The translations under genes were made by a program, and so were the position numbers. Under the pieces are notes generated by a model. It saw nothing but the letters and a program-made list of their open reading frames with translations. It was not told the DNA's origin and did no database searches. A DNA stretch of 64,000 nt from Nitrospira defluvii (lineage in GTDB: Bacteria > Nitrospirota > Nitrospiria > Nitrospirales > Nitrospiraceae): assembly GCA_011525625.1 (NCBI GenBank), contig WYAX01000012.1:496001-560000 (forward strand). The letters are read 5' to 3'. This document shows positions 47,853-64,000 of the stretch, in pieces. Position 1 is the stretch's first letter. Each line of letters opens with the position of its first letter.

Positions 47853-48952
47853 CGAAGTCGCTCTCTCCCCCAGATTACTCGATCTTCCTCGCGGCGGTGA
47901 AGGATCGCATCCTTCATGCTCGTATTTCTGTCGCCCGTGCTATTAACCGCGACCTGGTCCTGCTCTACTGGGACATCGGTCAAGGTCTTGCGGAGAAACA
48001 ACGGACGGCAGGGTGGGGAGATGCCGTAATAGAAAAGCTTGCCGCCGACCTGCGGACCGAGTTTCCCGACATGCGAGGCTTCTCGGTTGTGAATTTGTGG
48101 AGAATGAAACAGCTCTATCTCGTCCATACTGCGCCTGAATTTCTCTCACAGGCTGTGAAGGAATTGAAGGTCGGAGGAGCTGCTCAGGAGAAACTCTCAC
48201 AAACTGTGAGAGAATTGGTTGCCTCGATTCCTTGGGGACATCACGCCAATCTACTGGCCAAGTTGTCCGACCCCGCCGCTCGTCTGTACTATCTTCGCGC
48301 CACGGCCCAATTCGGTTGGAGCAGGAGCGTCCTGCTCAATCAAATCAAAGCCGGAGCCTACGAGCGGGCCGTGAAGGAAAAGAAGACGCATAACTTCGCT
48401 CTCGCCCTCCCGGAGCACTTCGCGGAGCAGGCGGGCGAGATGATGAAGAGCCGTTACAACCTCGAATTTCTCGGCATCAACCGTGCCGTCAAAGAACGTG
48501 AACTCGAAGACCGACTTGTCTCCCATCTTCAGCGCTTCATCCTCGAGCTGGGCTATGGCTTTTGCTTCGTGGGCCGCCAATACCGGCTCGCGCTTGGACG
48601 GAAGGAATACTTCGTGGACTTGCTCTTCTACCATCGCTTCATCAAGGCGCTGGTGGCATTCGACCTCAAGATCGGCCCCTTCGAGCCGGAGCATGCGGGC
48701 AAGATGGACTTTTATCTCAACCTCTTGAACGAAAAAGAGCGCGGTTCGGCCGACGGCCCGTCTATTGGTATCATCCTCTGCGCCGAAAAGGATGACATCG
48801 AAGTCGAGTTTGCGCTCAAAACTAAACACAATCCGATCGGCGTCGCCGAATATCGATTGCAGGCCAGACTGCCTGCCAAGTTGAAGGGACGCCTGCCTAG
48901 CGCCAAACAGCTGGCCGACGCTGTGCGCGAAGTTCTCCCATCGAGGAAATAA
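47849..48952 (+). CDS. DUF1016/YhcG-family PD-(D/E)XK nuclease
   Basis: A 367-residue protein. The N-terminal DUF1016 domain (ARAINRDLVLLYWDIGQGLA, FSVVNLWRMKQLY) precedes the YhcG nuclease domain with FCFVGRQYRLALGRKEYFVD, LLFYHRFIKALVAFDLKIG (D and D-x-K catalytic positions) and SIGIILCAEKDD. Such genes are common inside restriction-modification loci, where they may cleave DNA at replication or break sites. Here it sits between Res and Mod with a 4-base overlap and a 2-base gap, so the three genes form one operon. Confidence 0.88.
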   Translation: MTKSLSPPDYSIFLAAVKDRILHARISVARAINRDLVLLYWDIGQGLAEKQRTAGWGDAVIEKLAADLRTEFPDMRGFSVVNLWRMKQLYLVHTAPEFLSQAVKELKVGGAAQEKLSQTVRELVASIPWGHHANLLAKLSDPAARLYYLRATAQFGWSRSVLLNQIKAGAYERAVKEKKTHNFALALPEHFAEQAGEMMKSRYNLEFLGINRAVKERELEDRLVSHLQRFILELGYGFCFVGRQYRLALGRKEYFVDLLFYHRFIKALVAFDLKIGPFEPEHAGKMDFYLNLLNEKERGSADGPSIGIILCAEKDDIEVEFALKTKHNPIGVAEYRLQARLPAKLKGRLPSAKQLADAVREVLPSRK

Positions 48953-48954
48953 TC

Positions 48955-51735
48955 ATGGCCAAGAAGCAAGGGACGACCAAGACGGTCAAAGCCCTGAAGC
49001 ACGACGAAGCCAAGCGAAAGAATATTCCCACGGCGGAATATCAGTCTGTCTTACGGAAAGAAGAGCAAAGCCCTGTCAGGATCGCGTACGAACGGCGCAA
49101 TCGCGATTTAGATCCTCAACTTGTCTGGCATGGCAAGGATGAGCAGGACTGGTCCGACCTCGTCGTCCATGCGCCGCCGCTCTACATCCAAGAAAAGGTC
49201 CATCCCAAGGCATTGATCGATGATCTGCTGCGAGAGACCAAAGAACGCGAGCATGAAGCAGGGCTCCTCACACCGGATCTGTTTGCTGACTTCAATGGTA
49301 TCCCTAAGGGAGTCGACAAGACTGAGTTCTATCAGCACGATCAAAACTGGTCGAACCGGATGATCCTCGGTGACTCGTTACAAGTGATGGCAAGTTTAGC
49401 CGAGAGAGAAGGGCTGCGGGGCAAAGTTCAGTGCATCTACTTCGATCCACCCTACGGCATCAAATTCAACAGCAACTTCCAGTGGAGCACGGCGAGCCGC
49501 GACGTGAAGGACGGCAACGCCGGCCATATCACCCGCGAACCGGAGCAGGTGAAAGCCTTCCGCGATACCTGGCGCGACGGGATTCATAGCTACCTCACTT
49601 ATCTGCGTGACCGTCTCACCGTGGCTCGTGATTTGCTGACTGAGTCCGGTTCCATCTTTGTGCAGATTGGCGATGAAAATGTCCATCGTGTGCGGGCTTT
49701 GATGGATGAAGTGTTTGGGGAGGACAATTTCGTTGTGACATTCGTCGTAAAGAAGAAAGGAGGGACAACGCCGACGGACCCAGTGAATGATTACATAATC
49801 TGGGCTTGCAAAACCCGTGATTTGCTCAAGCTTCGCCCGACCTACGAGAGGCGAAAGACCCCAGGCAACGGATCAAAGTTCACGACCGTCATTTTTCCGA
49901 ATGGGAATCGGTGTCCTACTTCGCGCCTTTCGGATGAAGAGATAGATTCCATTTGTCAAGACGGAGCGAGGTTTGCACGCGTGGATTGGCCGCTCGTAAG
50001 CCAGGACCCATCAGCGCGTAGCCGTGATTTCCAGTGGCAACAAAAGTCGTATCCCTGCGCGGCCGGAGGCCATTGGCGATATGACCCCGACACGCAGATG
50101 CCTCGCCTTGCAAGAGCGGATCGCCTCAATCTCGAGGCAAAGCGGGTCGCCGGCATAGTATTGTGGGAGGACTGGCCCTATGAATCACGGTCCAATTTGT
50201 GGGACGACACGGGCGCACAGCAAGACTTAGTCTATGTGGTGCAGACTCCGACCAAAGTCGTCGAACGATGTATTCAGATGACCACTGACCCAGGCGATCT
50301 CGTGTTTGACCCGACCTGCGGTTCTGGCACCACTGCGTATGTCGCAGAACAATGGGGCCGTCGATGGATCACGATTGACACCTCCCGCGTGGCCTTGGCC
50401 TTGGCCCGTGCTCGTATCATGGGCGCACGGTACCCATTTTATCTGCTCGCAGATTCCCGCGAAGGCCAGATGAAGGAAGCTGAAGTCACCCGCACAGCCC
50501 CGAGTTCTAAGCCTGTGCAGGGGAATATCCGTCAGGGCTTCGTATATGAGCGCGTGCCACACATTACGCTGAAGTCTATTGCCAACAATGCTGAAATTGA
50601 CGTGATCTGGGACAAATGGCAGGCAACGCTGGAGCCGTTGCGCGAGAAGCTGAACGCTGCGCTCAGGAAGCAATTGCAGGAATGGGAGATTCCGCGCGAA
50701 GCCGATGCCAAGTGGTCAGACGGGGCGAAGAAGCTCCATGGCGACTGGTGGCAGGCCCGCATCGCTCGGCAAACGGAAATCGACAAATCCATCGCTGCTA
50801 AAGCCGAGTTTGAATATCTCTACGACAAGCCTTATGAAAACAAAAAATGTGTCCGCGTGGCTGGTCCCTTTACAGTCGAAAGCTTGTCGCCACATCGCGT
50901 GCTGGGTGTGGATGAGAATGACGAATTAATCGATGCCTCCAAGGAAACCAGATCAGAGTACGGCGCGAAGCAAAGTTTCGCACAGATGATTCTGGAGAAT
51001 CTCAAGGCCGCGGGGGTTCAGCAAGCCCATAAGAATGACAAAATCACCTTTATATCCCTCACTCTCTGGCCTGGCGATCTTGTCTGCGCGGAAGGACGCT
51101 ATCTTGAGGGAGACAAGGAAAAGCGTGCCGCAATCTTCATTGGACCGGAATTTGGGACTGTCACCAGGCCCGATCTGGTAGAAGCGGCTCGCGAGGCAGG
51201 GGACGCTGGGTTCGACGTGCTCATCGCCTGTGCGTTCAATTACGAAGCCCATACCACCGAGTTCAGCAAGCTGGGGCGTATTCCCGTGCTCAAGGCCAGG
51301 ATGAATGCCGACTTGCACATGTCCGACGATCTCAAGAACACCGGCAAGGGCAACCTCTTCGTGATTTTTGGTGAACCAGATATCGATATCCTCAAGGAAA
51401 AAGACGGGAAGATCCGCGTGAATGTCAAAGGTGTGGATGTGTTTAAGCCTCAAACTGGTGAAGTGATCAGCGACAGCGCCGAAGGCATCGCCTGTTGGTT
51501 TATCGACACCGACTATAACGAAGAAAGCTTCTTCGTTCGCCACGCCTACTTTCTGGGCGCGAACGATCCCTATAGTGCCCTGAAGACGACCCTCAAAGCC
51601 GAGATCGACCCCGAAACCTGGGCCACCCTCAACAGCGATACATCAAGAGCGTTCGACAAGCCCAAGTCTGGTCGCATTGGCGTCAAAGTGATCAATCATT
51701 TGGGCGATGAAGTGATGAAGGTGTTCAAGGTGTAG
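48955..51735 (+). CDS. Type III DNA methyltransferase, Mod subunit
   Basis: A 926-residue amino-methyltransferase of the beta class order: DPPY motif (YFDPPYGIKF) near residue 163 comes before the SAM-binding motif FDPTCGSGTTA near residue 451. Such Mod proteins methylate adenine N6 and carry the target-recognition region between the motifs. It is longer than classical Mod subunits (about 600-700 aa); the C-terminal 350 residues (for example FEYLYDKPYENKKCVRVAGP) form an additional domain seen in large Mod proteins of this kind. It follows the YhcG-type gene by 2 bases. Confidence 0.9.
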   Translation: MAKKQGTTKTVKALKHDEAKRKNIPTAEYQSVLRKEEQSPVRIAYERRNRDLDPQLVWHGKDEQDWSDLVVHAPPLYIQEKVHPKALIDDLLRETKEREHEAGLLTPDLFADFNGIPKGVDKTEFYQHDQNWSNRMILGDSLQVMASLAEREGLRGKVQCIYFDPPYGIKFNSNFQWSTASRDVKDGNAGHITREPEQVKAFRDTWRDGIHSYLTYLRDRLTVARDLLTESGSIFVQIGDENVHRVRALMDEVFGEDNFVVTFVVKKKGGTTPTDPVNDYIIWACKTRDLLKLRPTYERRKTPGNGSKFTTVIFPNGNRCPTSRLSDEEIDSICQDGARFARVDWPLVSQDPSARSRDFQWQQKSYPCAAGGHWRYDPDTQMPRLARADRLNLEAKRVAGIVLWEDWPYESRSNLWDDTGAQQDLVYVVQTPTKVVERCIQMTTDPGDLVFDPTCGSGTTAYVAEQWGRRWITIDTSRVALALARARIMGARYPFYLLADSREGQMKEAEVTRTAPSSKPVQGNIRQGFVYERVPHITLKSIANNAEIDVIWDKWQATLEPLREKLNAALRKQLQEWEIPREADAKWSDGAKKLHGDWWQARIARQTEIDKSIAAKAEFEYLYDKPYENKKCVRVAGPFTVESLSPHRVLGVDENDELIDASKETRSEYGAKQSFAQMILENLKAAGVQQAHKNDKITFISLTLWPGDLVCAEGRYLEGDKEKRAAIFIGPEFGTVTRPDLVEAAREAGDAGFDVLIACAFNYEAHTTEFSKLGRIPVLKARMNADLHMSDDLKNTGKGNLFVIFGEPDIDILKEKDGKIRVNVKGVDVFKPQTGEVISDSAEGIACWFIDTDYNEESFFVRHAYFLGANDPYSALKTTLKAEIDPETWATLNSDTSRAFDKPKSGRIGVKVINHLGDEVMKVFKV

Positions 51736-51784: not shown

Positions 51785-53095
51785 ATGGCAATTGATGCAC
51801 GAACTCGCCAGATTCTGTGGGGTAAAGCTGGAGCTATATGCACCTTCCCTGACTGCCGTCGGAGGCTTGTTAGAGACGAAACTGCAAATGACCGAGAGGT
51901 CTTGGTTGGGGAGATTGCTCACATCGTTGCCCAAAGTCCAGGCGGGCCTAGACGTGATGTCGAGGTGCCAGGCGGAGATATCGATGGCTATACCAATCTG
52001 ATTCTCTTCTGTCATGAGCATCATGAGCTGGTTGACCAACAACATCACACTTATTCTGTTGAACGACTACTTCAGTTCAAGCATGACCACGAAGAATGGG
52101 TCCGAATCCGATTATCGAGAAATCAACAGTGCGATGGGCTTTCTCGCCAAGAAAAGACGGTAACAGAGACGGTATGGTCTACCCTTCTGCCTGTCACGCA
52201 ACTTCCGGGTTATGTGTTCTCGGGAGAATGCACGGTTCCTGAGGCCGATGTGAGATCCTCGATTAGGTGGCCTAGTGACAAACGCATAATCACTCCTTTC
52301 ATCGTCCGCGGCGGCCAACTGTACGCATTCAATAATCTAAGAGATCTTGATTCGCCTTTCGCCATGGTCGTTGATCCACTTTCAGTAAAGCGGCACAGCG
52401 TGAGTGACTGGTTGGGACAGCCGGATTACGAACGATGGTTTGTAGAACTGCTTAATCGTACGATCAATAAGATCACCGGTCGTTTAGGGTTAAAGCTCGA
52501 CAGAAATCATCACCGTTATTACTTTGAACCTGATGAGCCTGGTAAGGAAAAGCGAGTGTCATATCTGTCAGTCGGTGGCGGTAGGTCTGAGCGGAATGTC
52601 GCATGGAATCCACACTTTAGACATAATGATGAAGCAAAAAGACATTGGGAACACTTAGCAATCGGCCTTCGGTTTCACAAGCTCGTACAGTCTTCGTGGG
52701 GTTTAGCAATTCGACCTGAGCGGAGGTTCACGTCTGATGGATTTGCGTCGCTCGAAGGCAAGGCGACGGGGAAGAGAAGTACGAAACGTAAGTCGCGCAT
52801 GTACAATTTTGATGTCTTAAAGGAGGTGCAGTTCTGGCGCGACTTTCTCTCTCAGGGAAGGCCTCGGATTACTTGCCTGTTTGGCAAACAAGCCCTGGTT
52901 ATCGAAAATGCACTAATGAGCGGAAGTATTACGTGGCCAGAGGTGGCCGGTGATGAGGCTGTTCGAATGGCCGCAAGTTATGAAGACGATTTACTTACGC
53001 TTGCAGAACTCTATGAGGCTAACGATTTTGATGAATTCGATGATGATGCTGCTGGTGATATAGACACGGATCAAGGAGAACCGCTTGAGGACTGA
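51785..53095 (+). CDS. HNH nuclease-APAZ partner of a short Argonaute (SPARHA-type)
   Basis: Residues 1-115 are an HNH nuclease with a zinc knuckle: C19 and C24 (CTFPDC), H46 in GEIAHIVAQ, N71 in GYTNLILFC (C76) and H79/H80. Residues about 140-400 match an APAZ region by layout: LPGYVFSGECTVPEADV, FAMVVDPLSVKRHSVSDW, RFHKLVQSSWGLAIRPERR, and the closing YNFDVLKEVQFWRDFLSQG, ITCLFGKQALVIEN. The tail is acidic. In short-Argonaute systems the APAZ protein binds the Argonaute and carries the effector; an HNH effector should degrade DNA after guide-target recognition. It overlaps the Argonaute gene by 11 bases. Confidence 0.82.
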   Translation: MAIDARTRQILWGKAGAICTFPDCRRRLVRDETANDREVLVGEIAHIVAQSPGGPRRDVEVPGGDIDGYTNLILFCHEHHELVDQQHHTYSVERLLQFKHDHEEWVRIRLSRNQQCDGLSRQEKTVTETVWSTLLPVTQLPGYVFSGECTVPEADVRSSIRWPSDKRIITPFIVRGGQLYAFNNLRDLDSPFAMVVDPLSVKRHSVSDWLGQPDYERWFVELLNRTINKITGRLGLKLDRNHHRYYFEPDEPGKEKRVSYLSVGGGRSERNVAWNPHFRHNDEAKRHWEHLAIGLRFHKLVQSSWGLAIRPERRFTSDGFASLEGKATGKRSTKRKSRMYNFDVLKEVQFWRDFLSQGRPRITCLFGKQALVIENALMSGSITWPEVAGDEAVRMAASYEDDLLTLAELYEANDFDEFDDDAAGDIDTDQGEPLED

Positions 53096-54500
53096 TCCCG
53101 TAGCTGTGCGATGCGAGTATTTCAACGAGCCACCATTGCAGTTTGCCTCGGATAGGCTGCATTTGTGTCCCAAGCGAGGCATCTCCCTCTTTGGCCCGCG
53201 CTCTTTGGATATGGGCAAGCGGCATCCGGAAACCATTCGGGTTGGTTTTATTGGTACAGGTGAGAGTGTTGAATCAGCGCTAGGTTGGTTGGACTCATGC
53301 TCAGCAGGAGTCGTTGGAGATGAGAAAAACTATCGCTTCCCCGGCTTCAAGTCAGATCGTGGATTTTTTAGCCAGTTAGCATTTGAAAACGAAACCGTGG
53401 AGAAGTTGACCATAAGCGAGTTGGAATCTATAGGAAAGATCCGGTCTAAGAGGGAAAGATTTGAGGCGACAGTGGAGCTGATTGGCGACAAGCTGCGATT
53501 GCTTGCGCAACGAGATCGTCCTCCTGAATACATCGTGCTCGCGTTGCCTGGCAGCTTGGTTAGAGCCAGCGGTAAGGTCGATTATTTCGATAAGCAATAT
53601 GGCCAGGTTCATCGCGATCTTCGACGAGCGACTAAGGCAGTTGCTATGAAGTACCGGCTTCCAACGCAAATTCTGCTTCAAAGAACGACTGAAGCGAGCT
53701 CTCAAAGCAGGAATGTTGATCATCGATCAAAATGTGCGTGGAACTTCTTTACCGCCCTCTACTACAAGTCAGGTGGTATCCCATGGATGCCTTATGGTTT
53801 GAATGATGGAACTTGCTATGTTGGCATCAGTTTTCATCGGGTAACAGGATCGAGGAGTACTTCCTACTTCACGGGGCTTGCCCAGGCATTTGACGAGCAA
53901 GGAAATGGCTTGGTGCTTCGTGGGCAGGATTTCGTCTGGGATGTTAGCAAGCATGGCAATTCGCCACATATGCCCGCTCAAGTGGCTGAAGAGCTGGTGT
54001 CGCTGGCTCTCAAACGCTATCGAGATGAGCTGAAACAGTCGCCGCGTCGGGTTGTCATCCATAAGACATCTGAATACTGGCCTGATGAGCGTGAGGGGCT
54101 ACGAGTCGCGCTAAAAGGGGTCAATCAATTTGATCTGGTGGCTGTTCGTTCTACAGAGGATGTTCGTCTTCTACGCGAGGCTAGATATCCCATTCTACGA
54201 GGAAGTTACATTGCCATGGGCGATATGCATCTGCTCTATACCACGGGATACATCAGTGCACTCCAAGCCTTCCCGCACGGACACGTGCCGGTACCGCTAA
54301 AACTTACCGATCATGTTGGCGATAGCTCAATCAAGGACGTTTTGCGTGAATTGATGGTTTTGACAAAAATGAATTGGAATTCGTCAAACTTTGGTGGGGC
54401 GTTGCCAATCACTCTGCGTTTTGCTGGGCTTGTCGGCGAAATTATGAAAGAAGTGCCGCCAAATGTAGATCCATTGCCACAATTCAAGTACTACATGTAA
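53085..54500 (+). CDS. Short prokaryotic Argonaute (MID-PIWI), catalytically inactive
   Basis: A 471-residue protein of short-pAgo length, without N and PAZ domains. MID-region features include PEYIVLALPGSLVR and the PIWI part has LPTQILLQRTT, then WNFFTALYYKSGGIPWMPYG and YVGISFHRV near residue 245. In active PIWI domains the last block carries the first catalytic Asp (G-x-D); here it is Ser, so the slicer site is lost. RRVVIHKTSEYWPDE is the conserved block near residue 325. The TTG start is chosen because AAGGAG lies 6 bases upstream; it overlaps the partner gene. It should load a small nucleic-acid guide and activate the HNH-APAZ effector. Confidence 0.85.
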   Translation: MRTDPVAVRCEYFNEPPLQFASDRLHLCPKRGISLFGPRSLDMGKRHPETIRVGFIGTGESVESALGWLDSCSAGVVGDEKNYRFPGFKSDRGFFSQLAFENETVEKLTISELESIGKIRSKRERFEATVELIGDKLRLLAQRDRPPEYIVLALPGSLVRASGKVDYFDKQYGQVHRDLRRATKAVAMKYRLPTQILLQRTTEASSQSRNVDHRSKCAWNFFTALYYKSGGIPWMPYGLNDGTCYVGISFHRVTGSRSTSYFTGLAQAFDEQGNGLVLRGQDFVWDVSKHGNSPHMPAQVAEELVSLALKRYRDELKQSPRRVVIHKTSEYWPDEREGLRVALKGVNQFDLVAVRSTEDVRLLREARYPILRGSYIAMGDMHLLYTTGYISALQAFPHGHVPVPLKLTDHVGDSSIKDVLRELMVLTKMNWNSSNFGGALPITLRFAGLVGEIMKEVPPNVDPLPQFKYYM

Positions 54501-54514
54501 CGATCTGATTCCTC

Positions 54515-56590
54515 ATGGACTTTCGCATTGCCGACACCTTTACTGATAGCCTCTCCCGCCTGACCGGCGATGAGCAGAAGGCCGTTAAGACAACAGCCTT
54601 TGATTTACAGCTTAACCCTGCCAATCCTGGTTTTAGCTTCCACAAGCTCGATAAAGCGAAGGACAAAAACTTCTGGTCGGTTCGTGTCAGCAGCGATCTT
54701 CGTCTGATTGTCCACCGCACGTCAGAAAGCTTGCTCCTCTGCTACGTTGACCACCACGACAAAGCCTACGAGTGGGCAGAGCGACGCAGGCTGGAGACCC
54801 ACCCCAAAACTGGCGCGGCTCAGTTCGTCGAGATTCGCGAAAAGGTTCAGGAGATTGTCGTTCCGAAATATGTCGAAACGCCCAAGGTCAAAGTTAAACG
54901 GCAGAAGCTGTTTTCTCAGATTCCTGACGCCGAGTTGCTGGGGTTTGGCGTACCTACCGAGTGGCTTCCGGATGTGCGTCAGGCTACGGAAGACACACTT
55001 TTAATATTGGCCGATCATTTGCCTGGGGAAGCCGCGGAGGCTCTATTAGAGCTGGCCACCGGGGGGAAGCCACGTCTGCCTCAGCCTGTGACCGAGGCGA
55101 CAAATCCGTTTGATCACCCGGACGCCCAGCGCCGATTCCGGGTGATGACAAATGTCGAAGAGTTGGAGCGTGCTCTTGAGTTCCCCTGGGAGAAATGGAC
55201 AGTCTTTCTTCATTCGGAGCAACGGCAGTGGGTGGAACGGGACTACAATGGCCCAACACGAGTGTCCGGTTCAGCGGGGACGGGTAAAACGATTGTGGCG
55301 TTGCATCGCGCCGCGTTTCTTGCTCGTACCAATCCCGATGCGCGGGTATTGCTGGCAACCTTTTCTGACACGCTCTCCCATGCGCTTCATACAAAGTTGC
55401 GACGGTTGATCGGCAGCGAACCACGCCTTGGGGAACGCATCGACGTTCATTCGCTAAATACGCTAGGAATACGACTCCATAAATCTCTGGTAGGTCCGGT
55501 CAAGCTGGCAAACCGAAATGATGTACGAGACATCCTCAAATCGGCCTCTCAATCCGTTGGTGGTCATAAGTTTACGCTTCACTTCCTCATCAGTGAGTGG
55601 GAACAGGTTGTCGATGCCTGGCAGTTGGCAAGCTGGGAGGCTTATCGCAATGTTGCTCGATTAGGTCGCAAGACGAGGTTGTCTGAAGCCCAACGGGCTG
55701 TCTTATGGTCAATCTTTGAGCAGTGTCGTGCCGGGCTCAAGAAGCAAGGGATCACCACAGAAGCCGCAGTGTTTACCAATGTCGCCTCCAAATTAGCGAA
55801 GACAAACAACCGTCCTTTTGACTTTGCTGTGGCGGACGAGGCGCAGGACATTGGGATTCCACAATTGCGGTTCTTTGCTGCATTGGGAGGAAGCCGATCG
55901 AACGCCCTTTTCTTCGCCGGCGACCTTGGCCAGCGGATCTTTCAACAGCCCTTCTCGTGGAAGGCGTTGGGTGTCGATATTCGGGGACGATCGCGCACAC
56001 TCCGAGTCAATTACCGAACATCGCATCAGATTCGAATGCAGGCCGATCGCCTGTTAGGGCCGCAGGTGGCGGATGTTGACGGCAATGTTGATGATCGCCG
56101 GGATACTATTTCGATCTTCAATGGCCCGCCGCCTAAGATCCAGATTCACAACAATGAAAAGGAAGAGAGCAAGACAGTCAGTGCCTGGATATTAGAACAC
56201 ATAAAGGCAGGAGTAGCGCCCCACGAGTTTGGGGTGTTTGTCCGTTCCGAGGCACAGCTACCTCGTGCACGTGCGGCAGTTGAGCAGGCGGGGATTCCAT
56301 TCAAGGTTCTCGATGAGCACGTGGAAACCACCAGCGGGTTCGCTTCGATCAGCACCATGCATTTGTCAAAAGGCTTGGAGTTTCGCGCAGTGACTGTGAT
56401 GGCCTGTGACGATGAAATCATCCCCCTGCAAGAACGAATCGAGACCGTAGGTGATGATGCCGATCTGCAGGAGGTCTATGACACAGAGAGGAATCTGCTC
56501 TACGTTGCGTGCACCCGAGCTCGCGACTATCTGCTTGTGACAAGCGTAGCGCCAGGGTCGGAGTTTCTAAATGATTTGAGGCTAACCTGA
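54515..56590 (+). CDS. RelE-like domain fused to UvrD-type SF1 helicase
   Basis: Residues 1-95 follow the RelE/ParE toxin fold: IADTFTDSLSRLTGDEQKAV, LNPANPGFSFHKLD, NFWSVRVSSDLRLIVHR, LCYVDHHDKAYEWAERR. From residue about 230 on it is an SF1A helicase: GSAGTGKTIVALHRA (motif I) near residue 253, VADEAQDIG (motif II) near residue 440, GDLGQRIFQQPFSWK, LRVNYRTSHQIR, STMHLSKGLEFRAVTVM and LLYVACTRARDYLLV. The gene starts 14 bases after the Argonaute stop on the same strand, so it is probably co-transcribed. It ends at a bidirectional terminator. The family is known as a stand-alone defence-island protein; its function is unknown. Confidence 0.8.
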   Translation: MDFRIADTFTDSLSRLTGDEQKAVKTTAFDLQLNPANPGFSFHKLDKAKDKNFWSVRVSSDLRLIVHRTSESLLLCYVDHHDKAYEWAERRRLETHPKTGAAQFVEIREKVQEIVVPKYVETPKVKVKRQKLFSQIPDAELLGFGVPTEWLPDVRQATEDTLLILADHLPGEAAEALLELATGGKPRLPQPVTEATNPFDHPDAQRRFRVMTNVEELERALEFPWEKWTVFLHSEQRQWVERDYNGPTRVSGSAGTGKTIVALHRAAFLARTNPDARVLLATFSDTLSHALHTKLRRLIGSEPRLGERIDVHSLNTLGIRLHKSLVGPVKLANRNDVRDILKSASQSVGGHKFTLHFLISEWEQVVDAWQLASWEAYRNVARLGRKTRLSEAQRAVLWSIFEQCRAGLKKQGITTEAAVFTNVASKLAKTNNRPFDFAVADEAQDIGIPQLRFFAALGGSRSNALFFAGDLGQRIFQQPFSWKALGVDIRGRSRTLRVNYRTSHQIRMQADRLLGPQVADVDGNVDDRRDTISIFNGPPPKIQIHNNEKEESKTVSAWILEHIKAGVAPHEFGVFVRSEAQLPRARAAVEQAGIPFKVLDEHVETTSGFASISTMHLSKGLEFRAVTVMACDDEIIPLQERIETVGDDADLQEVYDTERNLLYVACTRARDYLLVTSVAPGSEFLNDLRLT

Positions 56591-56727
56591 AAAAGCCTTT
56601 CCTGCGATACTGGCTGGGTAGATAACTGCAATGGTACCTTTTCTTGAAATGTCCGGTGTGACCAAATGTGACGACAACGAATCAACAAATCACACTCTTC
56701 AGTTGACGAGGCCGAAAATGGCCATGG

Positions 56728-56752
56728 AAAGCCCCCTCAGTGTGGCTTTTTT
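56728..56752. terminator. Intrinsic terminator between convergent genes
   Basis: AAAGCC (56728-56733) and GGCTTT (56744-56749) form a stem that can be extended by GGA/TCC, and a run of six T follows on the plus strand. It serves the helicase gene and, read on the other strand with the A-rich side, may also end the SLOG gene. Confidence 0.6.
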
Positions 56753-56775
56753 CCACGCGGACTTCGAGAAAGACA

Positions 56776-57654
56776 CTACCTGTTAGCGGTCGCAAATCGT
56801 CTGCCGAGACCGAGACTGATCAACGCGGCAATTTCGCTGGGCCGGTGTGATGCTGACAGCTTCCTATTTTCTTCCTCGGTGAGTCCATTTTGAAGGCCTG
56901 ACCATTTCTTGCGTTTCTGGATGTCAGCAAGGAGAGCTAGGCCATCAAGTAACCGTTTATCCGGGGGGGCTGCATCTGTCCTCCTGATGAGCCAAGAACC
57001 ATCATCAACACCTAGCGCACGAATGATGTCTGCTGTAACACCACCAAAACCCCCGGCCAAATAAATAGGTTGATTGGATTCCAAGGCCAGTAGAGTTTCT
57101 TCGATAAGTCCTGGTATATAGCCATGAAAGCCTTCCCGTTTGCCTCCAATAAGTATCCGCCCGCTTGTGTGTTTCGACATGAATTGGCGCATGTTCGTAA
57201 GACTCTTTTGGGCCGAATCAGAAGGTGGCTCCGAGACCGGCTCCTCAGAACGATTTAGATACGGATCGATGGGCTCTCCGTTAGGGGCAAGGAAAATGAA
57301 TTTGCCGTGTAACCCCAACGTCTTTTGTTGCTCCCGTAATGTGGCTAGAGATAGATTTCGGTGTTCCTGCCACGCCAGACAAATATGGAGTGGACGGTCT
57401 CGCCGGCTAAACCTATGAAGCTCCTGCATCAGAAAGGCTGTATAACCATCAGGTTTAAGATGGCCCCCATAGGCTAGATGCCCGCCCGAAACTAGAACGC
57501 AGCGTGCAATCTCCCCCAGAGCGAGGCGAAAATGTGTTTCGAGCAGACCCAAGCGGGCTAGGTCAGGGCTATCAGACACGGAAATGCCGAGCCGAACATT
57601 GGCAAGCGCATTTGGTGGAAGCAGGCTTTCTCCTTGCGATTTCTGGTTTCCCAT
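56776..57654 (-). CDS. SLOG-family (TIR-associated, STALD/dSLOG-like) protein
   Basis: A 292-residue Rossmann-like protein of the SLOG superfamily: VRLGISVSDSPDLARLG, then ALGEIARCVLVSGGHLAYGG (the GG-x-x-x-YGG block), a second half with GRILIGGKREGFHGYIPGLI and EETLLALESNQPIYLAGGFG. The last block (AGGFGGVTADIIRALG) is the PGGxGT-like nucleotide-binding turn. SLOG domains bind nucleotide or ADP-ribose-type ligands; in Thoeris, the SLOG part of ThsA senses the TIR-made signal. Here the SLOG stands alone, without SIR2 or membrane effector. It starts directly at the stop of the TIR gene (TAGATG). Confidence 0.7.
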   Translation of the reverse strand: MGNQKSQGESLLPPNALANVRLGISVSDSPDLARLGLLETHFRLALGEIARCVLVSGGHLAYGGHLKPDGYTAFLMQELHRFSRRDRPLHICLAWQEHRNLSLATLREQQKTLGLHGKFIFLAPNGEPIDPYLNRSEEPVSEPPSDSAQKSLTNMRQFMSKHTSGRILIGGKREGFHGYIPGLIEETLLALESNQPIYLAGGFGGVTADIIRALGVDDGSWLIRRTDAAPPDKRLLDGLALLADIQKRKKWSGLQNGLTEEENRKLSASHRPSEIAALISLGLGRRFATANR

Positions 57655-58905
57655 CTAACCTCCCCGCGCCGCTAAGAGTCGTGGGGTCATGATGTCAAGT
57701 TTGGCACCAGGGCGAGCAAGTGATAATACTTCTTCAAGCACAAGCCGTTCGTCCGGGCCTAGCGGCGGGTCGGGATGCAGAACACGTACATCCGAACCTT
57801 CATGTGGCAAAGTTCCATCTCGTTTTGCATTCTCAAACCAATGCACCAGTGTCAAAGGTTCGGGAGCATGATGAGCCCACCACGCGATATGCAGCTCTGG
57901 CCTACCATGCGATAATTCCTTCTGGTGCATCCACAGTGCCCGCTTGAGGCACTCATCTACAAGGAGATTGAGCGCTTGATACACATCTTTCTTACTCCAA
58001 TGGCCATGTTCCCTACGAATGGGGACGCGGGGGACATGATCCATCAAGAATGACCCTCTTTCTTCTCCCTTACCTGGGGCATCCAATATGATGACGGGCA
58101 TGCCATGCCGCTTGGCGATGAGGATCTCGCGTTGACACCATTCACGGCTGGGGTACAGGTCGGTTCGTATTCCTAGTAACGCACTCGTTGAGGCTTTAGC
58201 GCGGAGTTCCTGATCCCAGTCAGTTCCTGGCTGTAGATCGTTTGCATCAAAGAACGATCTCAAGCGCGTCTCCATAATGACTGTTCTTACCAGCGCCACA
58301 AGTGCAGTCGTATCCTCCTCATCGCCCGGAGATGCCCGTTTTGTGTGGCTTATAAAAATGGTTAGCCGCTGATTATCAGGAGAGGAGATCCACTGAGTAA
58401 TCCCTTGGGCCAGATCGCGACATCGCAAAGTCATGTGCGTTTCCCCCTCGACGTGTGCTGCGGAGGCAGCGATACGTTGGTAGGGGTTTAACAACTTCCC
58501 CAGGACTGTGTCATTGGTCGCTTCTTGGTCTATCACATATGGGAATATCCCTATGCGATCAGGCGTCTCGCGTTGTCTGGAGGTAATTCCCTCAATATAG
58601 TCTCGCCAGGTACTCGAGCCGCCCTCAACAGCAGCAGCCATTTCCGTGCCAATGAGTGGGGCAATCGCTGTAAACTTTGCCTGATCCAGTTTGTTGGGAA
58701 GAGGGTTTTGGGTTGTAGGAATGGGGCGAGGTGCATCATCAAGGGAATGCCAACCTTCACTGCGAATAAAGACCTCGACGGCTCCACCAATAAGCCCGGT
58801 GAAGGGAGTGCCGTGGAAATGCTCCACGAATTCTTTGGCGATCGTCAGTCCTGCCACATCCCCGGGATGCCAAATTACGTATAACTCAAGGACTGGCGGC
58901 AGCAT
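57655..58905 (-). CDS. TIR-domain protein with N-terminal TIR-like region
   Basis: A 416-residue protein. The N-terminal 100 residues (LELYVIWHPGDVAGLTIAKE, GLIGGAVEVFIRSEGW) look like a TIR-like domain. A canonical TIR follows at residues about 183-285: RLTIFISHTKRAS, FFDANDLQPGTDWDQEL, SALLGIRTDLYPSREWCQRE (catalytic Glu candidate in CQREI), MPVIILDA. The C-terminus contains VRVLHPDPPLGPDERLVLEE, a block seen in TIR-SLOG partners. AAGGAG precedes the ATG. TIR domains cleave NAD or make ADP-ribose signals. It is co-translated with the SLOG gene and divergent from the Nmad2 operon. Confidence 0.78.
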   Translation of the reverse strand: MLPPVLELYVIWHPGDVAGLTIAKEFVEHFHGTPFTGLIGGAVEVFIRSEGWHSLDDAPRPIPTTQNPLPNKLDQAKFTAIAPLIGTEMAAAVEGGSSTWRDYIEGITSRQRETPDRIGIFPYVIDQEATNDTVLGKLLNPYQRIAASAAHVEGETHMTLRCRDLAQGITQWISSPDNQRLTIFISHTKRASPGDEEDTTALVALVRTVIMETRLRSFFDANDLQPGTDWDQELRAKASTSALLGIRTDLYPSREWCQREILIAKRHGMPVIILDAPGKGEERGSFLMDHVPRVPIRREHGHWSKKDVYQALNLLVDECLKRALWMHQKELSHGRPELHIAWWAHHAPEPLTLVHWFENAKRDGTLPHEGSDVRVLHPDPPLGPDERLVLEEVLSLARPGAKLDIMTPRLLAARGG

Positions 58906-58936
58906 CCAATCTCCTTATCAAAGGGCGAATGATCGA

Positions 58937-58961
58937 ATATTATACCGTTTCGGTATAATAT
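58937..58961. promoter_or_regulatory. Perfect inverted repeat with symmetrical -10 boxes in a divergent promoter
   Basis: ATATTATACCG (58937-58947) and CGGTATAATAT (58951-58961) are a perfect 11-bp inverted repeat around TTT. Each arm contains TATAAT, on the plus strand at 58954-58959 and on the minus strand at 58944-58939. Both -10 boxes point outward, so one repressor dimer could close both promoters. It serves the TIR-SLOG genes to the left and the TIR/Nmad2/MazG/UDG operon to the right. Confidence 0.7.
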
Positions 58962-59012
58962 GGCCACCGGTCGATTTCAGCCGAATAAGAGAAGGATGAC
59001 GAGTGATTGCTG

Positions 59013-59483
59013 ATGAAAACAACAAACGTCTTTATAAGTCATATTCATGAAGATGATGTCGGCCTTGGCAAGCTGAAGGATCTGCTCGGGGGCAATGGCC
59101 TTACGATTAGGGATTACTCAGTCAATTCGGATAATCCGAACAACGCCAAGTCAGAAGGTTACATCAAGTCGCAGATTCTCGCCCCCCGTATACAGCAATC
59201 CAGCACGTTGGTCGTTTATATTACGCCTCACACGAAAGACAGCGACTATGTTAACTGGGAAATAGAATACGCTCACAGTAAGAACAAACGGATCGTTGGT
59301 GTTTGGGCGCATGGAGAAAACGGCTGCGAGGTTCCGGATGCTTTGGATAAATACGCAAATGCTGTAGTGGGCTGGACAGGCAATCGCATAATTGAGGCCA
59401 TAAGCGGGAAGATAGATGGTTGGGAAAACCCCGATGGCACGCAGAGCACGCCCCGTGAGATCAAGCGCTATACGTGTGGCTAG
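59013..59483 (+). CDS. ThsB-like TIR (DUF1863) protein
   Basis: A 156-residue single-domain TIR-like protein: TTNVFISHIHEDDVGLGKLK, LTIRDYSV, IKSQILAPRIQQSSTLVVYI, SDYVNWEIEYAHSKNKRIVG. The W-E-I-E segment supplies the candidate catalytic Glu. This MTH538/DUF1863 layout is that of ThsB in Thoeris, which makes a cyclic ADP-ribose signal on infection. The ATG at 59013 is preferred over an in-frame TTG 6 bases upstream. It is the first gene of the right-hand operon; Nmad2 follows after 11 bases. Confidence 0.8.
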   Translation: MKTTNVFISHIHEDDVGLGKLKDLLGGNGLTIRDYSVNSDNPNNAKSEGYIKSQILAPRIQQSSTLVVYITPHTKDSDYVNWEIEYAHSKNKRIVGVWAHGENGCEVPDALDKYANAVVGWTGNRIIEAISGKIDGWENPDGTQSTPREIKRYTCG

Positions 59484-59494
59484 GGGGAAGCGGT

Positions 59495-60103
59495 TTGAAA
59501 CTATTTTCATACGTGATTGCTCGCGACTACGGTTTTGCCCCTAATCCGTTCTCTGATCGATGCACGCTGGCGACCTGCAAGCCCATGATTCGGAAGACTG
59601 CCAATATAGGCGATTGGGTTGTTGGTACGGGGAGCGCGGAGTGTAAGCGAAAAGGATTTCTTGTGTATGCCATGTGCGTCACCGAGATCATGACATTTAA
59701 TCAGTATTGGGAAAGCCCACGTTTTCAGGAGAAGAAGCCGAATCTCAGAGGAAGCATCAAGCAGGCTTTTGGCGATAATATCTATTGGAGGGATGCCAAA
59801 GGTCGATGGCATCAACAGGATTCTCATCATAGTTATGTAGGGGGTATGCCCAATCCGCATAATATTAAGAACGATACGCAGGTGGACAGAATTCTGGTGA
59901 GCGAGGATTATGCGTATTGGGGTGGTTCTGGGCCTGAAATTCCAGAAAAGTTCAGGAACTGGGGTGGAATCGATATTTGTAGCGGTCGAGGGCACAAAAA
60001 TCAGTTTCCTGATGGTCTCGTCGAGGCATTTATCGCCTGGTTTCGTTCGCTGAGCGCAAGCAGGTACCAAGGTGAGCCTTTCGAATGGTCGAGGACGCCG
60101 TGA
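59495..60103 (+). CDS. Nmad2 (nucleotide modification associated domain 2) protein
   Basis: A 202-residue protein with the Nmad2 signature start KLFSYVIARDYGFAPNPFSD, then CTLATCKPMIRKTANIGDWV and VGTGS, and later WGGSGPEIPEKFRNW and SGRGHKNQFP. TTG is used as start because it places KLFSYV at the N-terminus, as in the family, with AGGGGGAA upstream; the upstream in-frame ATG overlaps the previous gene. Nmad families were defined from loci that make or sense modified nucleobases; the activity of Nmad2 is not established. Its stop overlaps the next gene. Confidence 0.8.
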   Translation: MKLFSYVIARDYGFAPNPFSDRCTLATCKPMIRKTANIGDWVVGTGSAECKRKGFLVYAMCVTEIMTFNQYWESPRFQEKKPNLRGSIKQAFGDNIYWRDAKGRWHQQDSHHSYVGGMPNPHNIKNDTQVDRILVSEDYAYWGGSGPEIPEKFRNWGGIDICSGRGHKNQFPDGLVEAFIAWFRSLSASRYQGEPFEWSRTP

Positions 60104-61275
60104 ACAACAAAGTCTCCTATCAGGACCCACAAGAGACGGAAGCTTCCAGGAACGCAGGTTTGTTACATGACTACAGAAGGAAAATTGAACCTACTGACAA
60201 GCTACCACTGGACGATTTGCGCCCAGTGTTGTTGGGTCTTTTCGGGGAAGTTGGAAGCATCATGGCAACGGCCAAAAAACTACACAGGGAACAACGGGCA
60301 TTTGCCGGCTATCAATACGCTGCGGAGGAGGAGTTCGGAGATGCGTTGTGGTATTTCACGGCATTATGTAAACGCTTGGGGTTTAATGTGGAGGATATTC
60401 TGTCAGGAGCACTGAATCAAAAAGATAAGGGCGGAGTCGCGGCAGCTAACCAAGTTGAAAATAAGACCGTCCCTCAGCTTTTATCACTTGGCGCATTATC
60501 TTCACTGGATGATACCCTAATGATGTTGGGAGAATCGTCTTCCGCGCTGTTTACGATAAACCATATTCGGAATAACGTGGAGGCATTGCTTCTTAGGTTT
60601 GCATCTTATTACGGACAATCCATCCAGTCGGCTCAAGTGTCGTTTGACCAGATTGTTCGTAAGAACATTGAGAAGGCACGGGGACGGTTTCTCGATCAGG
60701 ATCCTTCCTCATTGCCAGTTTTCGATTATTATTGCGCAAAGGAGGAACGGCTTCCCGAGAGTTTTAAGATCGTAATTACCCAGCGCAAAAGTGGGCAAAG
60801 CTATTTGCAATGGAACGATGTTTTCATAGGAGAACCGCTAACTGACAGTATTCTTGATCCAGATGGATATCGTTTTCATGATGTTTTGCATCTTGCACAT
60901 GCTGCAATTCTTCACTGGTCACCCGTTTTTAGGGCTCTGGTAAAACAAAAGCGAAAAAGCTATCCAAAGATTGATGAAGCCCAGGATGGCGGTCGTGCAA
61001 TTGTTGTTGAGGAAGGGCTGACGGCATGGATATTTGCTCATGCTAAGGAAATGAAGTTTTTTGAACAGCAGGATAGTCTCGCCTTTGATCTCTTAAAAGG
61101 GGTTCAGCAATTCGTTCGAGGCTATGAAGTGGAAGCATGTCCCTTGAAGCTGTGGGAGAGCGCCATACTGCGTGGATATGATGTTTTTAGGCAAGTGCGC
61201 GACCACAATGGCGGAATTATAGTCGGTGATCGCAACGCCCGCACTATCTCATATATGCCATTGAACCCCGAGTAA
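60100..61275 (+). CDS. MazG-like nucleotide pyrophosphohydrolase with C-terminal domain
   Basis: A 391-residue protein. The MazG-like metal-binding helices appear as LLGLFGEVGSIMATAKKLHR and AAEEEFGDALWYFTALCKRL, with the E-x-x-x and E-E-x-x-D acidic pattern that holds Mg. The C-terminal half (YRFHDVLHLAHAAILHWSPV, AIVVEEGLTAWIFAHAKEMK) is the extra domain found in phage-defence and phage-borne MazG-like proteins. Known MazG-type enzymes hydrolyse NTPs, dNTPs or (p)ppGpp. GTG in the GTGA overlap with the Nmad2 stop is chosen, with GAGGA in front; an ATG 15 bases earlier is possible. Confidence 0.8.
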   Translation: MNNKVSYQDPQETEASRNAGLLHDYRRKIEPTDKLPLDDLRPVLLGLFGEVGSIMATAKKLHREQRAFAGYQYAAEEEFGDALWYFTALCKRLGFNVEDILSGALNQKDKGGVAAANQVENKTVPQLLSLGALSSLDDTLMMLGESSSALFTINHIRNNVEALLLRFASYYGQSIQSAQVSFDQIVRKNIEKARGRFLDQDPSSLPVFDYYCAKEERLPESFKIVITQRKSGQSYLQWNDVFIGEPLTDSILDPDGYRFHDVLHLAHAAILHWSPVFRALVKQKRKSYPKIDEAQDGGRAIVVEEGLTAWIFAHAKEMKFFEQQDSLAFDLLKGVQQFVRGYEVEACPLKLWESAILRGYDVFRQVRDHNGGIIVGDRNARTISYMPLNPE

Positions 61276-61278
61276 TGT

Positions 61279-61938
61279 ATGAGACCAATTAATTTTGTGG
61301 AAGCATTATGTGCACTGAAATTTGAGAATGCCTTCAATCCGTACTCTGGGAAGTGCGACGTCCACGATCTCGATGACGCACCGCGTCGTAGGGCACATGC
61401 ATTATTGGCTATGCTCGAAGCTGCATCAAATGCTGAAGTGGATGCTATATGGATTGGGCGTGATCTTGGTTATCGGGGCGGAAGACGCACTGGGCTGGCA
61501 CTCACTGACGATGTCCATATTTTTGCACACGCCGCACGGTGGGGTATTACCGCAGAGCGCCCTACCAAAGGGGCGCCAGTTGTAGAACGCACCGCAGCGG
61601 TTATTTGGGACGTTCTCTCACAAATTAAAGCATCTGTTTTCTTATGGAACGTATTCCCTTTGCACCCGCATGAATGTGGTGAGCCGTTTAGCAACAGGTC
61701 TCACAACGCCCAGGAACGAATGGTAGGGGAACAGATTCTCGCCCAACTCATAATCTTGTTGAAGCCGAAGCGGCTTATTGCCATCGGTACTGATGCGGCT
61801 AAAGCTGTAAATCGCCTAGGTGGGAACTTAAAGATTCATGAAATAAGGCATCCCAGCTACGGCGGGCAGACACAGTTTATAAGGCAAACAAGGGAATTGT
61901 ATGGGTTGCCTGAGCGCGAAACCAAGACATTGTTCTGA
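61279..61938 (+). CDS. Uracil-DNA-glycosylase-like protein
   Basis: A 219-residue member of the UDG superfamily by layout: AIWIGRDLGYRGGRRTGLAL with TDDVHIF (motif A region), VFLWNVFPLHPHECGEPFSN (the Asn-containing middle block), RLIAIGTDAAKAVNRLGG and EIRHPSYGG (motif B with HPS). UDG-fold enzymes excise uracil or other odd bases; the motif A Asp/Asn environment (GRDLG) is atypical, so the substrate may be different. It starts 3 bases after the MazG-like stop and ends the operon. Confidence 0.75.
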   Translation: MRPINFVEALCALKFENAFNPYSGKCDVHDLDDAPRRRAHALLAMLEAASNAEVDAIWIGRDLGYRGGRRTGLALTDDVHIFAHAARWGITAERPTKGAPVVERTAAVIWDVLSQIKASVFLWNVFPLHPHECGEPFSNRSHNAQERMVGEQILAQLIILLKPKRLIAIGTDAAKAVNRLGGNLKIHEIRHPSYGGQTQFIRQTRELYGLPERETKTLF

Positions 61939-62305
61939 TTAGATTAAATTAGCGAAGTCTGGTGGAGATTTTTCCTGAGCTGTTCAATCATGGCTGTTGC
62001 GGTGGCATTTCTTGTTTCGTTTCTCAGCAGTATTTTCTGATCCCGATTCAGAACTTGCATATTCCGATGGTGGCGTGCCAATGGTCGACCGGACTTTACT
62101 GGCCACGATGATGGTCCAACGCCCGTGTCGATCATCGAGCAATTCCAACAGATCGTGGCGGTGCTCTTCTGTAGTGCTCCTCTGAAATCAGACCACCGGG
62201 TTGCTTGTTGGAGCCGGTGTTGACGTCGCGTACTCCAGTTTTAATCCGCCGTCGTTTTCCGGGCAGATGTCAGGGTTAGCCGGGCGAGCTTTTCCAGAAA
62301 CTCAA
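61939..62305. other. Intergenic region, no gene recognised
   Basis: About 365 bases between the convergent UDG-like and WD40 genes. Short open frames on both strands (up to about 63 codons on minus, 62 on plus) show no family resemblance. No terminator with a clear T tract was found. Confidence 0.4.
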
Positions 62306-64000
62306 CTATTCCACCTCGGTGGACAGGTGGAGCCTAACCGGTTGATATTCGCATGGACCGGGTGGGGGGTCATTAGGGACAATGATGCCCCAAGCTGTTG
62401 GGGTTGGCTCTTCAAGCATTCTTTCGCAAAGCTGTTTATCGATCCCCATAGATGGCAGAGGTATTAGCTTGAGAGTCTCTACACCTGAGACGGATGTGAG
62501 CACCGCGACAAACTCATCATCCAAGCTGAACGCCATGGCACGACGCTGTGATCCCTCGAAAAATAACCGACGACTAACACTAAGGCTTCCATCGATATGG
62601 TAAACGGCAATGGTCCCGCTATCATCGATTACTGAAAAGTGAGAACTAGAAGGCGAGAATGTAATAGATTGAACGACACCGAAAGTTTCAATCGACTTTA
62701 GCGTTTTGAGGTCTGGAAGCTGGTGAAGCGAAACCTTATTGCCGTCTGCGGAGACAACTGTGCGTCCATCAGGAGCTACTGCGACGAGGATGCCAGGCGA
62801 CCTTCCTTCTGCCGAGCTAATGCGTGTGAGATCGTTTCCTGAGTAAACCCTGATACCGGACGTCGCCTTCCGCCGATCCGCCAACGTTACAACAACATAT
62901 TGCCCCGCCGAATCGAGAGCGATGGAATCTACATCCTCCGTTATTGGAACACGTCGTACTTCTCTCTGCGGTTCACGCCAGATACCAATCCACGCGTCAG
63001 ACTTATTTCCCTCTCTGGGAACCTTGTTCGCATCATATGAGTGATATCCCAGCGCTGCGATGGCTTTTCCGTCAGGTGTTGTGGCAATTTTGTTCGCCCT
63101 GAACTCAGGACCAATTAGAGTTCCGGATAAATCTCTTACAGCGTAAGTATTCGAAAATACGTTGCGCCCTGACAAGAGGGCCTGATGCCCTCCCACTCCT
63201 GCCAATATGTCGTTGGTGTCATATCCGCGTTCTAAAGAATAGGACTTGCTATCTCCAGTCTTCAGATCAACGGAACGCATTCCTGCCACGGTAGTCTCTA
63301 AGAGATGATTGTCTGCATCAAATCCTATTGCCAGCACTTCATCGGAAGCCACGTTGAATGCCGAGGAGAAATCAGCGCTTCCTAATAGGTTCCAGATTAT
63401 GACGAGGCCGGATAATTCGTTGGCTTCTGCTCCAGCCGTTACAAGATGAGTGTCGGTGCTATCGAATGTAATATCGTAAATTGGTCCGCCCGTGCTAGCC
63501 TTCGCCAGCTCACTACCAGTCGCATGGGAATACACAGCAGCCCCTCCCGGTGCACCGGCGGCTAAGAAGCGGCCGTCGTTCGAAAAGACCAACGAGCGCA
63601 AGCCTGGTAAGCTTTGGAACTGGAAATCAACCTTGTTCGTTTTTGGATTAAACAGGTCAATGTGACCGTCTCCCGCGCCAATGGCTAACACATTGCTATT
63701 TAATGCAAAAGCGATCGCTGCAATTCCGCTTTGTTTTTGCGTGGCAAAATGGTGACTGCCGCTTTTCATGTCCATGATAAAGGCAGGGGTCTTTGCACCT
63801 ATGAAGATCGAACTTGGAACAAGGGCTACATATCTGCCGTCAGATGAAACAGCCATCCGCAAAGGTGGCCACCCCTCAAAAGGAAGGGGCACTTTCCTTA
63901 TAATGCCCGTTCCGGTCTCAATCGTAGCCACCTGGTGTTCGTCGGCAATGGCCAAATAATTGCCGAGGTAATCTAGTGATATCTTCGCTTGATTCGAGAA
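62306..64000 (-). CDS. WD40/beta-propeller repeat protein (5'-partial)
   Basis: The frame stays open to the right edge, so the N-terminus lies outside the window. The visible 565 residues consist of degenerate WD40-like blades, for example LRMAVSSDGRYVALVPSS, IAAIAFALNSNVLAIGAGDG, LRSLVFSNDGRFLAAGAPGG, IYDITFDSTDTHLVTAGAEA, IVVEAL-like gaps later, and VQSITFSPSSSHFSVIDDSG. The C-terminus (CERMLEEPTPTAWGIIVPND) is a short cap. In bacteria such C-terminal propellers are often joined to STAND NTPases with TIR, caspase or other effectors, so the missing part may hold such domains. Confidence 0.75.
   Translation of the reverse strand, partial: FSNQAKISLDYLGNYLAIADEHQVATIETGTGIIRKVPLPFEGWPPLRMAVSSDGRYVALVPSSIFIGAKTPAFIMDMKSGSHHFATQKQSGIAAIAFALNSNVLAIGAGDGHIDLFNPKTNKVDFQFQSLPGLRSLVFSNDGRFLAAGAPGGAAVYSHATGSELAKASTGGPIYDITFDSTDTHLVTAGAEANELSGLVIIWNLLGSADFSSAFNVASDEVLAIGFDADNHLLETTVAGMRSVDLKTGDSKSYSLERGYDTNDILAGVGGHQALLSGRNVFSNTYAVRDLSGTLIGPEFRANKIATTPDGKAIAALGYHSYDANKVPREGNKSDAWIGIWREPQREVRRVPITEDVDSIALDSAGQYVVVTLADRRKATSGIRVYSGNDLTRISSAEGRSPGILVAVAPDGRTVVSADGNKVSLHQLPDLKTLKSIETFGVVQSITFSPSSSHFSVIDDSGTIAVYHIDGSLSVSRRLFFEGSQRRAMAFSLDDEFVAVLTSVSGVETLKLIPLPSMGIDKQLCERMLEEPTPTAWGIIVPNDPPPGPCEYQPVRLHLSTEVE

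Follow-up and report, generated by a model that had tools for sequence, protein, structure and literature searches.

A candidate Thoeris-like locus in Nitrospira defluvii that joins TIR proteins to base- and nucleotide-handling families

Does a short run of genes in a 64,000-nucleotide stretch of the Nitrospira defluvii genome (GenBank assembly GCA_011525625.1, contig WYAX01000012.1, positions 496,001 to 560,000; hereafter the window) encode a single anti-phage system, and if so, how far does that system extend and what might it sense? At 59013–61938 in the window, an initial annotation had placed a four-gene operon joining a ThsB-like TIR protein with Nmad2, MazG-like and uracil-DNA glycosylase (UDG)-like proteins, and had suggested that it couples base or nucleotide clean-up to TIR signalling. 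The domain content of the four families was confirmed by Pfam. The first gene (59013..59483, forward strand, as for all four) encodes a 156 amino acid (aa) protein that matches Pfam ThsB_TIR (4.6e-22) and the PADLOC ThsB model PDLC00418. It is followed by genes for a 202 aa Nmad2 protein with a TTG start (59495..60103; 1.4e-71), a MazG plus MazG_C protein of 396 aa when read from the ATG at 60085 (60085..61275; MazG_C 5e-77) and a 219 aa UDG-superfamily protein (61279..61938; 2.7e-6, above the cut-off). The intergenic spacings of 11, -4 and 3 bases reproduced those first reported, and the grouping of the four genes as one operon is supported. Translation of the MazG_C gene starts either at the GTG at 60100, which gives the 4-base overlap with the Nmad2 stop codon, or at the ATG at 60085. 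PADLOC contains no model for the Nmad2, MazG_C or UDG proteins of the window.

To find relatives, the families were searched for in 395 genomes of the window's phylum, 398 genomes of Pseudomonadota and 385 of Alphaproteobacteria, and also in 296 genomes of the phylum of G042 (the source of locus L007, Bacteroidota) and in viral contigs. These searches replaced a contig scan with a single Nmad2 query, which had found two relatives only, and the collected loci (L numbers) were scanned with hidden Markov models built in this analysis. As the loci were gathered via the same families, the proportions given here describe the sampled loci and not all genomes. The order TIR-Nmad2-MazG_C-UDG, close-packed on one strand, was seen in the window and in L002, L003, L004, L005, L047, L051, L057, L098 and L099, and was seen truncated in L006, L007 and L091. 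A distant DNA search of plasmids returned the same gene set in Tistrella, Cupriavidus, Beijerinckia and Mesorhizobium, and no match to the TIR-Nmad2 DNA was found in complete Escherichia coli genomes. The four families thus occur together, in order, in several phyla, as expected if the initial grouping was sound. Nmad2 was present in 10/395 genomes of the window's phylum and 6/398 Pseudomonadota, and MazG_C in 13/385 alphaproteobacterial genomes. Eight of the 15 alphaproteobacterial MazG_C loci included Nmad2 inside the fetched region of about 12 kb, a linkage far beyond chance (rough binomial probability of about 3e-31 relative to Nmad2 in 6/398 Pseudomonadota).

The TIR and Nmad2 genes formed 30 pairs in 29 loci and were kept together where the remaining genes had been inverted or moved (L046, L090, L092, L093, L094 and L102). 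MazG_C-UDG was found without TIR-Nmad2 in L048, L049, L050 and L052. TIR-Nmad2 and MazG_C-glycosylase are two separable modules, and the glycosylase-fold gene is the constant link. A further family of approximately 217 aa with an N-terminal membrane segment, which had no Pfam match, was found by TIR-Nmad2 or MazG_C genes (L046:8190-8846 and L054:6391-7038).

The fourth position is filled in one of two ways. In 27 of the 30 TIR-Nmad2 pairs either UDG (17 pairs) or HMUDK_hel (PF18723; 10 pairs) was nearby, never both; of the other three, two lay at the end of a sequence and one was an additional copy in a locus with UDG. Similarly, all 15 alphaproteobacterial MazG_C loci had an adjoining UDG (10) or HMUDK_hel (5). 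Parsimony on the Nmad2 tree requires four UDG/HMUDK changes, and the well-supported branches alone force at least three changes of the HMUDK label. As they are mutually exclusive and have been exchanged on this tree, UDG and HMUDK_hel look like interchangeable parts.

The window UDG matches PF03167 with 28.0 bits (cut-off 24.3) and carries the invariant motifs RDLG-RGGRRTG--LTD, WN-FP-HP and HPSYGGQ. D62, N124 and H191, which by motif position we take to be the Ung catalytic residues, are invariant in 17/17 proteins. It did not satisfy the NCBIfam UDG family-4 models (17.5 bits against a required 250, and 14.9 against 125.3), and has (A/G)RDLG where family 4 has GEAPG. Clean-up roles are known for the MazG and UDG families, and UDG-superfamily proteins are encoded at six other places in this genome, as might be expected if the genes served nucleotide-pool or DNA-repair housekeeping, removing dUTP or oxidised or damaged bases, with the TIR gene incidental. 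However, the UDG falls far below the family-4 cut-offs and the linkage to TIR genes is repeated. Because the distribution is patchy, often plasmid-borne and in defence islands, we consider a housekeeping role very improbable.

For HMUDK_hel, a sequence-profile search gave nothing but aquaporin noise. A structure model, predicted from a viral contig sequence, had a predicted local distance difference test score (pLDDT) of 93. The top Foldseek rows were AlkA, PUGT and Ogg (E 0.24–1.6), and VIA gave Z scores of 10.3 for DUF2419, 10.1 for PUGT and 9.0 for an AlkA-like protein, values that helical models often reach by chance. DUF2419 is a queuosine nucleosidase, and PUGT (8z2m) is the phage 5-phosphomethyl-dU (5-PmdU) glycinyltransferase. 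HMUDK_hel is thus predicted to have a helix-hairpin-helix glycosylase-like fold. Since the model matches helix-hairpin-helix glycosylases, both occupants of the fourth position are probably glycosylase-like though mutually unrelated. A thymidylate synthase homologue accompanies HMUDK_hel and TIR-Nmad2 in L075, L081 and L097, with Nmad1 also present in L081, and these loci resemble a bacteria-borne version of the phage thymidine-hypermodification set.

The description of the first protein as ThsB-like is well founded. It matches PDLC00418 over its full length (7.5e-63), a profile search returned ThsB structures, and F7 and E83 align in a residue table with F6 and E81, the catalytic residues of staphylococcal ThsB2 (PMC12578639). 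Both residues are retained in 21 of 25 TIR proteins, including that of the window, while in L058, L090, L092 and L093 the TIR beside Nmad2 is missing one or both of them. A metallophosphoesterase gene is also present in L092 and L093. A Cys at, or a few residues from, the C-terminus is invariant in 25/25 Nmad2-paired TIRs, those without the catalytic residues included; in the window it is Cys155 (about 59475-59477).

Its partner is a clear member of Nmad2 (PF18753; 240.6 bits, cut-off 26.1). As sequence and profile searches of the PDB with Nmad2 gave nothing useful, a structure was predicted, and the AlphaFold2 model of the window protein, built with nine sequences, had a pLDDT of 86.6 and a predicted template modelling score (pTM) of 0.85. 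Foldseek matched it to ASCH, EVE (2p5d, 2hd9, 1zce and 2eve), the McrB N-terminal domain and YTH, with the best E value (0.027) for ASCH. Among the 50 VIA-align rows listed, Z scores were 7.3–8.1 and nearly all were for YTH, with one EVE. These scores are modest and near background, but the PUA superfamily alone fills both lists, and the Nmad2 fold is predicted to resemble PUA-superfamily base readers (ASCH/EVE/YTH). Members of this superfamily read modified bases and are used in defence (PMC7641849 and PMC7897488). A constant association of Nmad2 with a TIR was considered and rejected, as in the 26 Nmad2 genomes from three phylum-wide samples a TIR adjoined in six; 10 had Nmad3 instead and one was truncated by the end of its contig. 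Where no TIR adjoins, Nmad2 frequently has Nmad3 (PF18754) as its partner, in a second conserved two-gene unit (L021-L024, L077, L078 and L083-L085).

In the third protein, the MazG-like N-terminus is below the Pfam cut-off (0.0095). Because a profile of the protein matches dCTP pyrophosphatase and MazG structures with E values down to 1.3e-7, the MazG part appears to be real, though remote. Three of the MazG metal-binding acids (ExxE...ExxD) are invariant (E55, E82 and D86). The MazG_C part includes an invariant HDxxH (H265-D266-H269) together with R304 and E310. A tblastn search of INPHARED phage records with the MazG_C protein returned no match, and hence this does not appear to be a common phage enzyme set.

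The coordinates of the four-gene operon held, but as a unit the system is probably larger, as a divergently transcribed pair of genes at 56776–58905 probably belongs with it. This pair, on the reverse strand, encodes a second TIR protein (57655..58905; 416 aa, with an N-terminal 'WHPxD' region and the TIR at residues 183–266; TIR_2 2.3e-6) and an abutting SLOG_cluster2 protein (56776..57654; 292 aa; LD_cluster2 2.7e-57), the sole copy found in this genome. This pair of proteins, or homologues of the two, adjoins TIR-Nmad2 in eight loci (the window, L005, L020, L047, L051, L075, L080 and L089), and in L002, L003, L004, L094 and L099 another TIR with SLOG_cluster3 is found in the same place. TIR+SLOG pairs, with SLOG proteins of two different families, are therefore beside 13 of the 29 TIR-Nmad2 loci. 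In L020, a single 701-residue frame encodes the TIR fused to SLOG_cluster2 and runs into the start of the ThsB-like TIR gene, and L080 is a single six-gene run of MazG_C, TIR, SLOG, HMUDK_hel, TIR and Nmad2. SLOG_cluster2 was found in 5/385 alphaproteobacterial genomes, in all five adjoining such a TIR, and the two best full-length copies were both close to TIR-Nmad2-MazG_C-UDG. The SLOG domain of ThsA receives the TIR-made signal (PMC12578639 and PMC12948488). By analogy, the window SLOG protein is a putative receiver of a nucleotide signal, and the divergent pair would supply the likely receiver for the signalling arm. Effector-like neighbours seen elsewhere are a SIR2-STALD protein and a patatin phospholipase that carries a SLOG_cluster2 segment and lies close to TIR genes, both in the Cupriavidus plasmid locus L002 (the patatin at L002:4313-5929), and a SLATT protein with two transmembrane segments in L057.

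The divergent units of the window share 107 bases, with TATAAT-like -10 hexamers on both strands and an inverted repeat with perfect 11-bp arms (ATATTATACCG-TTT-CGGTATAATAT; 58937..58961) that lies between them. Its core pattern was found only here in the genome. Promoter and terminator scans returned no more sites than shuffled sequences.

Several observations count against a single six-gene system. TIR+SLOG_cluster2 was without TIR-Nmad2 in three of the five alphaproteobacterial cases, and hence TIR+SLOG is a unit of its own that gets recruited, and over half of the TIR-Nmad2 loci are without TIR+SLOG. As each often occurs apart from the other, the effector link could partly reflect defence-island neighbourhood. 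The palindrome was sought in the related loci and is not conserved, so that its role as a putative shared operator or promoter is local at best. As the Nmad2-linked TIR lacks F7, E83 or both in four loci, the system does not in every case need NADase activity. Most proteins are without the fourth MazG metal ligand, with S or G, usually Ser, in place of the second E of ExxE in 19/23. Finally, the fold matches by Foldseek are weak (E 0.03–0.3). If the four genes were one defence unit and TIR+SLOG a separate system that often adjoins it in defence islands, the separate occurrences and the location of the window region in such an island would be explained, but the L020 fusion, the single operon of L080 and the shared 107-bp region with its unique palindrome would not. 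Neither would the proximity of the two best full-length copies of the rare SLOG_cluster2 to homologues of the operon, and we regard this separation as improbable.

There is good support for the genes forming one system. Whether they make up a single six-gene anti-phage system, Thoeris-like and with a dedicated base- or nucleotide-sensing module, is evenly balanced in our judgement. This reading draws on domain content, co-occurrence, fusion, interchange at the fourth position, conserved catalytic residues and predicted folds, and from these we infer the trigger, ligand, direction of flow, order of events, identity of the signal and of the answering effector, and protection against phages. UDG here, or HMUDK_hel elsewhere, together with MazG-MazG_C would meet non-canonical pyrimidine bases or nucleotides made by a phage, such as deoxyuridine (dU) or 5-hydroxymethyl-dU, with the glycosylase-fold enzyme acting before Nmad2. 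Nmad2, as a PUA-like reader, would then bind the modified base, nucleotide or DNA, and the ligand-bound form would license the tightly coupled ThsB-like TIR to convert NAD+ to a cyclic ADP-ribose-type signal. The SLOG protein would sense this signal and activate its partner TIR (other loci have a SLOG-patatin, SIR2-STALD or SLATT membrane protein nearby), and NAD+ would thereby be depleted and the infection halted. The coupling of base or nucleotide handling to TIR signalling that was originally suggested fits all of these findings, but the suggestion missed TIR+SLOG, the UDG/HMUDK_hel exchange and the division into two modules. More broadly, and only tentatively, there may be a family of immune systems whose two-gene TIR-Nmad2 switch is licensed by interchangeable and structurally unrelated enzymes of glycosylase fold, which would recognise uracil or hypermodified bases in phage DNA or its nucleotides, with an NAD-derived messenger passing to SLOG-gated effectors. 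Recognition of the base-excision type would then serve innate immunity as a sensor.

The flow could also run in the reverse direction, as in Kongming, where the NAD-depleting effector is activated by dITP made with a phage kinase (PMC12948488). MazG-MazG_C and UDG or HMUDK_hel would then turn nucleotides or bases of phage origin into a modified nucleotide that acts via Nmad2 on an NAD-depleting TIR, and TIR+SLOG would be separate or an amplifier. TIR-Nmad2 is the most constant pair, the enzyme sets vary (thymidylate synthase, Nmad1 and HMUDK_hel) and more than half of the TIR-Nmad2 loci do without TIR+SLOG, all as this reversal would have it. However, the TIR resembles the signal-making ThsB and not effector TIRs, TIR+SLOG is fused or co-operonic with TIR-Nmad2 in L020 and L080, and in some loci the TIR is without catalytic residues. 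We consider the reversed flow rather unlikely.

The surroundings of the operon are those of a defence island, with pAgo, a type III methyltransferase and others. A UvrD-type helicase gene (54515-56590; Pfam), whose product has a weak N-terminal HigB/RelE-like segment, lies beyond the divergent pair, and is preceded by a class I pAgo-type PIWI protein and, before it, an HNH protein with a pAgo-associated (PNTD-type) region (51785-54500; PADLOC). Further away are the type III methyltransferase gene (48955-51735), a PADLOC PDC-S02 candidate (47849-48952) and a large gene that, judged by eye, is restriction-subunit-like (44802-47852). Three overlapping genes on the reverse strand (37294-43408), also judged by eye only, resemble a tyrosine-recombinase trio and are perhaps the mark of a mobile element.

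Phages alter their own bases to hide from nucleases. If the six-gene Thoeris-like reading is true, coupling a TIR alarm to base readers and enzymes of glycosylase fold would make that disguise a trigger. It would also account for the orphan domains Nmad2, MazG_C and HMUDK_hel, and TIR/SLOG signalling would gain a sensor for something other than capsid protein, which is what the known staphylococcal and streptococcal Thoeris systems sense (PMC12578639).

Among known systems, Thoeris shares with this locus a ThsB-like TIR with the catalytic Phe and Glu, a SLOG partner as likely receiver and, plausibly, NAD-based signalling, and in the Cupriavidus locus L002 a SIR2-STALD protein with ThsA architecture is encoded 39 bases after the UDG gene. 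It differs in that the effector pair here is TIR with SLOG cluster 2 or 3, and in that Nmad2, MazG-MazG_C and UDG or HMUDK_hel are co-operonic with a TIR. No SIR2-STALD or TM-macro ThsA was found beside the window operon, and the ten scanned genes (51785-63955) contained neither SIR2 nor STALD. A search of the whole genome for STALD likewise came back empty, as did its controls. In Kongming (KomABC), KomB (HAM1-like) and KomC (SIR2-like) are found beside KomA; neither a SIR2 nor a HAM1-type domain was found among the window genes scanned, and the operon has TIR, Nmad2, MazG_C and UDG. The two have in common the linking of non-canonical deoxynucleotides from infection to NAD depletion (PMC12948488). 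EVE-HNH and McrBC modification-dependent restriction likewise place a modified-base reader of the PUA superfamily in defence (PMC7641849 and PMC7897488), but here the reader-like Nmad2 is coupled to a TIR and not to a nuclease. HMUDK_hel and Nmad families are also shared with phage thymidine hypermodification (5-hmdU kinase and 5-PmdU glycinyltransferase), and the HMUDK_hel model matches PUGT (8z2m), but here they adjoin TIR genes, both plasmid-borne and chromosomal, and are interchangeable with UDG.

The initial annotation knew of no described system with this exact set. We found no paper that describes TIR-Nmad2 as a pair, the exchange between UDG and HMUDK or the connection to SLOG in a partial coverage of the literature, but the claim needs narrowing, as the 2026 DefensePredictor report (PMC13092281) lists MazG, MazG-C, NMAD, dUTPase and aGPT-PPlase as domains with a predicted, untested role in defence. 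The legend to its Fig. 6F also includes UDG, the report refers to Burroughs 2015, and the legend to Fig. 3C, on E. coli systems that were validated, mentions NMAD along with thymidylate synthase and 5-hmdU DNA kinase, a set reminiscent of L081 and L097. The text gives no gene order, TIR/SLOG link or mechanism, and the same four-gene set may be in the figures. As DefensePredictor already lists NMAD, MazG, MazG-C and UDG as predicted systems, we conclude that the novelty of the locus is moderate and lies in TIR/SLOG signalling in a new variant form.

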